64,000 bases of DNA from Candidatus Kapaibacterium sp. GTDB lineage: Bacteria; Bacteroidota; Ignavibacteria; Kapaibacteriales; HRBIN21. The translations under genes were made by a program, and so were the position numbers. The stretch spans positions 130,176 through 194,175 of the forward strand of contig JANXCT010000003.1 in the NCBI GenBank assembly GCA_025059875.1, in the 5' to 3' direction. Shown here in pieces: positions 52,828 to 54,663 of this stretch; position 1 is the stretch's first letter, and every line of letters begins with the position of its first letter. The notes beneath the pieces are model-generated. The model saw only the letters and a list, made by a program, of their open reading frames with translations, had not been told where the DNA came from and searched no databases.

Positions 52828-53207
52828 GACGCCTGCTTGCTACCACCCCTGCCCTGCTCTACGCTGGGCTTATCGCGTATGCTTCCCACATCCCCGGCCT
52901 CCAGCCCCTATTCACCTGGTCTTGGGGCGACAAGCTCACCCATGCCTTAGTCTACGCTGGCTTCGGGATGACTCTCGCGTTCGCGGTCACGGCACAACAC
53001 CAGCAGCCTTCTTTTGCTTCGATCGCGGTGTGGACACTCCTCCTCGGCGCCCTCTACGCGGCTAGCGATGAACTCCATCAACTCTTCGTCCCCAACCGCG
53101 TAGCAGATTTCCGCGATTGGCTAGCCGATGTCGTCGGGATCGGTGTCAGCCTACTGATAAGCCGTCCTCTCTTCCGATGGTGGCACCGGTGGCTCTGGAA
53201 AGGATGA
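52824..53207 (+). CDS. VanZ-family membrane protein
   Basis: The 127-residue protein has about four membrane segments. GDKLTHALVYAGFGMTLAFA and YAASDELHQLFVPNRVADFR with DWLADVVGIGV are the family signatures. VanZ itself confers low teicoplanin resistance; most homologues, including this one, have no established function. It is linked by 4-nt overlaps to nnr upstream and tgt downstream, which places it in the operon but tells nothing about its role. Confidence 0.87.
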   Translation: MRRLLATTPALLYAGLIAYASHIPGLQPLFTWSWGDKLTHALVYAGFGMTLAFAVTAQHQQPSFASIAVWTLLLGALYAASDELHQLFVPNRVADFRDWLADVVGIGVSLLISRPLFRWWHRWLWKG

Positions 53208-54361
53208 GCTTCCGTGTTGTCGCAACTGACCCGCACAGCGGTGCACGGGTTGGTCTCCTCGAAACGGCGCACGGGACCGTTGAGACCCCAGCCTTCATGC
53301 CTGTCGGTACGCAAGGCACGATTAAAGCGCTGGACCATCGCCGGGCTCTGGAATTAGGAGTCCAACTCCTACTCTGCAACGCCTACCACCTCGCCCTCCG
53401 GCCTGGGAAAGCCGTCATCGAGCACTTCGGGGGCCTCCACCGCTTCATCGGCTGGCAGAAGCCCATCCTGACTGACAGCGGAGGCTACCAGATCTTCTCA
53501 CTTCAGCAACTCCGGCGTGTCTCCGACGAAGGCGTGGAATTCCGTTCCCACGTTGACGGCTCCCTACACTACTTCACGCCGGAGTCTGTGATCGAGCTCC
53601 AGCGCTCCCTCGGCTCCGACATCATGATGGTGCTAGACGAATGCCCCCCATACCCCGCCGAGCATACGGCTGTAGAGCGTGCCGTCGCACGGACACTCGC
53701 ATGGGCGCGCCGTTCTTTGACCGTCTTCCATGCTACACAGCCTCGCTACGGCTACTCCCAACTCCTCTTCGGCATCGGGCAGGGCGGTGTCTACGCCGAC
53801 CTCCGCCGGCAGTGTCTACAAGAGCTGCTGCAGTGGGACTTCGACGGTTTTGCGATTGGCGGACTTTCCGTTGGCGAACCCACATCGGCGATGTACGAGA
53901 TGGTAGCCCTCTCCTGCGAGCTCCTTCCTACAGAGCGCCCACGGTACCTCATGGGAGTCGGCACTCCAGAGAACATCCTCACCGCAATCGAGTACGGCGT
54001 GGACCTCTTCGACTGCGTCCTGCCAACCCGAAACGCCCGCAATGGGCAGCTCTTCACTACTCGAGGCAAGATCAACATCCGCAATGCTCGCTGGCGGCTC
54101 AGCGACGAACCCATCGACCCCGGCCTAGACTCGCCAGTGAGCCGTACAGTAACGCTCGGCTACTTGCGCCACCTCTTCCTTGCTCGGGAAATTACAGCCT
54201 TGATTCTGGCAACAGAGCAGAACCTGGCCTTCTACCACTGGCTCCTGGGCACGGCGCGACAGAAAATACGGGATGGTAGCTTTCGTCACTGGAAGCGCTG
54301 CTTCCTAGAGCACTTCCAGCAGGCAGTAGAAACAAGCGACGAGGATTCCCCATGCCACTGA
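53204..54361 (+). CDS. tgt: tRNA-guanine transglycosylase, zinc site apparently lost
   Basis: Exchanges guanine-34 for preQ1 in tRNAs with GUN anticodons. The 385 residues have the usual opening HGTVETPAFMPVGTQGTIKA, the active-site Asp in PILTDSGGYQIFSL, IGQGGVYADLRRQC, FAIGGLSVGEP, and the nucleophile region DCVLPTRNARNGQLFTT. In most bacterial Tgt this is followed by a CxCxxC zinc motif and a later His. Here the aligned stretch reads DPGLDSPVSRTVTLGYLRHL, with Leu, Ser and Ser in place of the three Cys, and TEQNLAFY in place of the TIHN-type segment, so the His ligand also appears gone. The rest is normal. ATG 53204 overlaps the VanZ stop; yajC overlaps the end. Confidence 0.93.
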   Translation: MSFRVVATDPHSGARVGLLETAHGTVETPAFMPVGTQGTIKALDHRRALELGVQLLLCNAYHLALRPGKAVIEHFGGLHRFIGWQKPILTDSGGYQIFSLQQLRRVSDEGVEFRSHVDGSLHYFTPESVIELQRSLGSDIMMVLDECPPYPAEHTAVERAVARTLAWARRSLTVFHATQPRYGYSQLLFGIGQGGVYADLRRQCLQELLQWDFDGFAIGGLSVGEPTSAMYEMVALSCELLPTERPRYLMGVGTPENILTAIEYGVDLFDCVLPTRNARNGQLFTTRGKINIRNARWRLSDEPIDPGLDSPVSRTVTLGYLRHLFLAREITALILATEQNLAFYHWLLGTARQKIRDGSFRHWKRCFLEHFQQAVETSDEDSPCH

Positions 54362-54663
54362 CCTACGCGGCTGCTGCACCGCAGCAAGGCGCCGATCCCA
54401 CTGCAGGGCTGATTAGCACCCTCATCTTCTTCGGTGCCATCCTGCTCATCTTCTACGTGATGATCATCCGGCCGCAGGTGAAGCGCCAGAAAGAGCACCA
54501 GAAGATGCTCAGCGAGCTCAAGAAGGGCGACCGCATCGTCACTACAGCCGGCATCCACGGTACCATCACCGACATAGAGGACAGCATCGTCGTCGTCCAG
54601 ATTGCTGACAACACCCGCATACGGATGGAGAAGTCGGCCATTGCAACGGTGCTGAAGAAGTAG
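54352..54663 (+). CDS. yajC: Preprotein translocase subunit YajC
   Basis: Accessory subunit of the SecDF-YajC membrane complex. The 103-residue protein has one membrane segment ([19 protein letters not shown]). The YajC signature [20 protein letters not shown] and a cytoplasmic [18 protein letters not shown] follow. tgt-yajC is a widely conserved gene pair, seen here with a 10-nt overlap. secD and secF do not follow; ribBA starts 2 nt after the stop instead. Confidence 0.95.

Follow-up and report, generated by a model that had tools for sequence, protein, structure and literature searches.

The tgt locus

The stretch of DNA analyzed here (the window, 64,000 nucleotides of a Candidatus Kapaibacterium genome) carries a gene which we identify as tgt, coding for the tRNA guanosine(34) transglycosylase. 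The protein scores 454.7 bits against the Tgt profile TIGR00430, above the curated equivalog cut-off of 306.75, and 480.2 bits against PF01702. An identity as archaeosine TgtA was rejected, the score against TIGR00432 (133.5 bits) being below the cut-off of 350. The ATG start codon is putative: the open reading frame 53117-54361 opens at a TTG 29 codons upstream of the ATG at 53204, and the match to TIGR00430 begins at residue 3 counted from this ATG. The gene is surrounded by genes for an NAD(P)H-hydrate dehydratase/epimerase and a VanZ-family protein and by yajC, ribBA and greA, of which yajC is the usual neighbour of tgt. The preliminary description of this locus had named a second, canonical tgt in the genome as a finding that would speak against its reading of the protein. 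A genome-wide search found no second tgt, and the source genome (1.97 Mb, 98% complete) holds exactly one Tgt match.

Table 1. Genes, codons and motifs at the tgt locus (positions within the window)
Feature	Position	Strand	Remarks
tgt	53204..54361	+	tRNA guanosine(34) transglycosylase, 385 aa; ATG...TGA; TIGR00430, PF01702
D91 codon	53474..53476	+	D102 of Z. mobilis, catalytic Asp; invariant in 181/181
D270 codon	54011..54013	+	nucleophile D280 of Z. mobilis; invariant in 181/181
DPGLDSPVS	54116..54142		read directly
L308 codon	54125..54127	+	position of zinc ligand C318 (Z. mobilis numbering)
S310 codon	54131..54133	+	position of zinc ligand C320 (Z. mobilis)
S313 codon	54140..54142	+	position of zinc ligand C323 (Z. 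mobilis)
TEQN	54212..54223		read directly
Q339 codon	54218..54220	+	position of zinc ligand H349 (Z. mobilis)
yajC	54352..54663	+	TIGR00739, 101.6 bits; overlaps the end of tgt

The zinc site of the window protein

The structural zinc site CxCxxC...H is absent from the window Tgt and its positions are occupied by L308, S310, S313 and Q339. For this assignment a relative (L078) was aligned to the chain of the Zymomonas mobilis TGT, on which the residue numbers were counted, and the window protein was placed against this relative and further Tgts; we take C318, C320, C323 and H349 to be the zinc ligands of the Z. mobilis enzyme. Human QTRT1 likewise has a zinc site of three Cys and one His according to an excerpt of PMC6165067. 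The alignment thus bears out the initial claim that all four zinc ligands are replaced. From residue 285 onward the window Tgt contains as Cys and His residues H323, H345, H362, C366, H370, C384 and H385, H323 being a conserved dimer residue. A search of the sequence for a substitute Cys or His near the zinc site, the other finding named beforehand as speaking against the claim, gave none.

The three Cys are also absent from all five congeneric Tgts, whereas position 339 is His in four of them (L003, L005, L006 and L007) and Gln in one (L004). Among the six congeneric tgt copies the 15 pairs gave dN/dS values of 0.06-0.17, which are rough as dS exceeds 1 and is near saturation. The gene is under purifying selection. 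A sequencing error or a pseudogene as the cause of the missing ligands is ruled out by these values and by the same loss of Cys in the five congeners.

Retained features of the enzyme

For a wider comparison 211 loci were reduced to 209 proteins longer than 330 amino acids and to 181 distinct Tgts, which were aligned. D91, D145, C147, Q193, G219, D270, R276 and R279 are identical in 181/181 Tgts, in agreement with the earlier remark that the catalytic Asp residues stay; apart from these two Asp we take the listed residues to be preQ1-pocket and anticodon-contact positions. A pocket of the preQ1 type is present in the window Tgt with D145, C147 and V223, presumably the equivalents of D156, C158 and V233 of Z. 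mobilis.

The hot spot of the TGT dimer is formed by F92, W326, Y330 and H333, according to the part of PMC5395182 that describes it. Among the corresponding residues Y320 and H323 are found in 181/181 and F81 in 175/181 Tgts. In nearly every row, whether the zinc site is present or not, the position of W326 is taken by Phe, Tyr or His; the window's genus has V316 here, and Val occurs in 7/91 zinc-less rows. V316 in place of an aromatic residue could mean a somewhat different dimer in this genus.

Of the genes for preQ1 synthesis, whose presence had been proposed as a check, queC, queD and queF are found in the genome, together with queA. In profile matches queF, queA and queC score above the cut-off in 6/6 genomes of the genus, and the QueD-like reading frame beside queF (L213) was named by its motif. 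Each of the six genomes of the genus has two QueA-like genes, of which one is of the standard form and the other carries an insertion in its C-terminal part (G000:C1:497706-498743 and G000:C1:445365-446570; L214, L215).

Structure prediction, likewise suggested beforehand, gave a confident TGT fold in spite of the missing ligands. The AlphaFold2 model has a mean pLDDT of 90.6 and of about 94 over residues 301-320, and in a Foldseek comparison with the Z. mobilis TGT (1efz) it reached a TM score of 0.93 with an rmsd of 1.3 and 45% identity. The helices at the zinc site (residues 311-315, 318-326 and 330-356) match in length and spacing those of a three-Cys control (L058; 309-313, 316-324 and 328-354), whose model has a pLDDT of 91.3. 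The window protein is thus predicted to have the TGT fold. As evidence of stability the match is weak, because AlphaFold2 is poor on point changes and because the 44-row alignment used as input included three-Cys rows.

Distribution of the zinc-less state

In the window's order none of the 30 distinct Tgts (the window and 29 loci of the nearest-relative set) has the three-Cys site; 27 have no Cys and three have one Cys at these positions. For the phylum we used a sample of 296 genomes, 291 of them with a Tgt match, and scanned for the three-Cys site with a DNA pattern, which was found in 45/296 genomes: 0/25 in the window's order, 40/48 in the other orders of the class and 5/223 in the other classes. 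These pattern counts are approximate since the pattern missed three genomes (G049, G077 and G282) and one match (in G276) lies outside tgt. When the eight pattern-negative genomes of the sister orders were read, the Cys were present in the three genomes just named and the Tgts of G128, G194, G209, G234 and G294 were zinc-less; pattern and reading together give a retained site in 43/48 genomes of the sister orders. In the other classes four of the five pattern matches belong to one family (f23), of which two were read and both have the three Cys and the His (CCCH); the fifth is the match in G276, whose Tgt is zinc-less. Reading 38 of the 218 pattern-negative genomes of these classes (28 and 10) gave a zinc-less Tgt in 38/38. 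Family f23 (L177, L178) lies outside the window's class and, unlike most of the phylum, has retained all four ligands; in one tree it adjoins the group with Phe, Asn and Cys.

The comparison outside Bacteroidota was made with a phylum sample of 99 genomes centred on G315, a Desulfomicrobium record. Here the pattern is present in 82/99 genomes. Four of the 17 pattern-negative genomes are without a Tgt match and 13 have one; the three Cys are present in 12 of these 13 Tgts, three of the 12 showing by eye one extra residue behind the third Cys, and the remaining one (G377) reads C-C-F-H. A set of 80 named loci contained 79 distinct whole Tgts, 48 of them CCCH. The zinc-less Tgts of this set come from records with Bacteroidota, Ignavibacteria, Kapaibacterium, Rhodothermales or Balneolales-type titles or from Bacteroidota genera, with one exception (L033). 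This record is titled Desulfobulbaceae, but in the tree its zinc-less Tgt branches within the window's order, and the record is therefore probably a mislabelled or contaminated assembly.

Most sampled Bacteroidota Tgts are hence without the three-Cys site, while the sister orders and the other sampled phyla mostly retain it. The preliminary description had considered a zinc-free lineage; the loss itself stands, but it is not limited to one lineage as it extends to most sampled Bacteroidota, probably with several origins. Since most sampled Bacteroidota Tgts pass the curated cut-off without the site, the zinc site, though common, does not define the curated family TIGR00430.

Coupling of the ligands and replacement residues

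It had been supposed that the three Cys and the His were lost together, and the alignment confirms this for the Cys but not for the His. The site is complete (CCCH) in 90/181 aligned Tgts, the three Cys being accompanied by the His in 90/90. Among the 91 zinc-less Tgts 70 have no Cys (36 with His, 34 with Gln) and 21 have one Cys (14 with His, 7 with Gln), so that His is retained in 50/91. Gln stands at the His position in 41/91 zinc-less Tgts and in 0/90 three-Cys Tgts; the aligned rows share kinship and these counts are not independent. Without the four rows obtained solely via the Cys pattern the counts are 86 CCCH and, as before, 91 zinc-less Tgts. As the His is replaced in none of the Tgts with the three Cys and in 41/91 without them, the Cys appear to be lost as a set and the His to be merely released; the four positions vary together only to this extent, the His being free after loss of the Cys. 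No Tgt with two Cys occurs among the 181. The 27 further rows read contain a single one, the Tgt of G377 (L219) mentioned above, in which the third Cys is changed to Phe and the His is kept; this could represent an initial stage of the loss or an error in the sequence.

The residues which replace the ligands differ between groups. In the zinc-less Tgts as a whole the first ligand position is hydrophobic in 77/91 (L308 in the window) and the third is Ser in 52/91 (S313), whereas Asp at the third position is paired with His in 10/11 cases. The window's order and Rhodothermales have Leu, Ile or Val with Ser and His or Gln; in families f26, f28 and f41 and in Balneolales Phe is combined with Asn or Ser, and the third Cys is often kept; the Bacteroidia-type rows have Gly or Ser with Asp-His.

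Number of losses

A tree of 116 rows, calculated after removal of the zinc-site columns, requires five changes of state by parsimony. A tree of 59 rows also gives five changes, with a 5-95% range of 4-6 over the bootstrap trees. The Tgt zinc site was thus probably lost several times in Bacteroidota, as far as trees of the protein can tell. The clearest recent loss is seen in family f15, which holds both states, L150 and L210 being CCCH and L174 FSNH. The tree is unrooted and silent on direction; the three-Cys outgroups make loss the likely one.

Against these repeated losses one could set a single ancestral loss in Bacteroidota, from which all zinc-less Tgts would have spread by descent and gene transfer. 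The support of the backbone is weak, as is that of most branches parting the losses, and the well-supported branches alone force just one change, which is compatible with such a history. However, a single origin is found in 0% of 200 bootstrap trees, an AU test with all zinc-less rows forced into one clade rejected this topology (p-AU 0.0191), and neither the two states within family f15 nor the replacement residues, which vary by group, are easily reconciled with it. We therefore regard a single loss as unlikely; it bears in any case on the number of losses alone. It seems reasonably likely to us that the dependence of Tgt on zinc was overcome in Bacteroidota on several independent occasions and by at least three residue solutions, which would be a hydrophobic residue as plug together with Ser and His or Gln, a Phe-Asn or Phe-Ser combination with one Cys, and Gly or Ser with an Asp-His pair.

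How Tgt may work without the zinc site

We consider it highly probable that the window Tgt is an ordinary preQ1-inserting homodimer in which packing has replaced the structural zinc, the site having been lost several times as a unit. As judged from its residues, the homodimer would exchange guanine-34 of tRNAs with a GUN anticodon for preQ1, D270 serving as the nucleophile and D91 as the general acid/base, and would do so without a structural metal. The C-terminal loop-helix subdomain, normally pinned by the zinc, would be held by ordinary side-chain packing, the first ligand position being filled by the bulky, hydrophobic L308 and the others by the small polar residues S310, S313 and Q339. 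The dimer-contact face beside the site would have been retained when the site was lost. Since the zinc subdomain bears the helix with Y320 and H323 which faces the partner subunit, selection possibly keeps this face and not the metal.

The preliminary description had also offered that the protein has changed its partner or function. It could then be, for example, a Tgt paralogue with a different substrate or the non-catalytic partner in a heterodimer. Such a change might be suspected from the loss of the zinc domain, called one of two hallmarks of the TGT family in the excerpt of PMC6165067, and from V316 at the dimer hot spot. Yet the protein is the sole Tgt of its genome, both catalytic Asp and all tested preQ1-pocket residues are kept and invariant, most dimer residues are retained, yajC adjoins the gene and dN/dS is low. 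The eukaryotic queuine TGT, QTRT1/QTRT2, belongs to the same fold family, but its non-catalytic subunit QTRT2 shows the reverse pattern, retaining the zinc residues and having lost the nucleophile (PMC4425180 and PMC6165067, as far as the excerpts go), whereas the window Tgt keeps the nucleophile and is without the zinc residues. A changed function or partner is accordingly improbable.

To the same small degree we credit a metal still held by other side chains or water, either at a weaker site of S310, S313 and Q339 or by the His where it is kept. The retained His of many zinc-less Tgts and the Asp-His pairs could be read in this way, but Asp-His may be a mere hydrogen bond, the zinc-less Tgts show no conservation of ligand-type residues, and the window protein has Leu, Ser, Ser and Gln at the four positions with no Cys or His close by. 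Least probable of all is that the organism spares zinc in general and lost the Tgt site in this way, for which this analysis found no support, because QueC of the genome keeps its Cys cluster, QueD its His-containing metal motif and RibBA, encoded two genes downstream of tgt, its CX10CXC motif, all of which we take to be zinc-binding.

Relation to known systems

The window Tgt resembles the Z. mobilis TGT (PDB 1PUD/1EFZ) in length, predicted fold, catalytic and preQ1 residues and in the Tyr and His of the dimer hot spot, and differs from it in that all four structural zinc ligands are replaced. A translation-related protein which is kept while its structural zinc site is replaced is also known from the Cys-minus paralogues of ribosomal proteins (L31, L36 and others). 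As a rule such paralogues are additional copies that are switched on when zinc is scarce, whereas the zinc-less Tgt is the sole copy and lineage-wide.

Mutagenesis of the zinc ligands of the E. coli TGT by Chong in 1995 is reportedly the source cited for the zinc requirement of the enzyme. That TGT requires zinc for activity is stated in an excerpt of PMC9508795. The zinc-less window Tgt would contradict this statement. Our literature search, which mostly excluded subscription papers, found no prior report of a zinc-less Tgt, and in the PDB list no structure of a Bacteroidota Tgt is evident, the organism of 10fa and 10fb aside. Curated databases may already mark the Tgt zinc ligands as conditional.

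If most of the phylum does without zinc, the metal would be needed neither for TGT chemistry nor for the fold. In that case the "required" zinc of Tgt would be a clamp that can be replaced, and the phylum would offer a natural experiment in how structural zinc sites are lost, open to direct tests in sibling groups that differ in the presence of the site. It would be a mistake to annotate such Tgts as zinc enzymes, and connections made between zinc status and Tgt would not apply to these bacteria.

As a minor observation, in one single-contig genome tgt is found in two overlapping frames (G208:C1:2356004-2357112; L240/L245), which reflects a frameshift or a sequence error.
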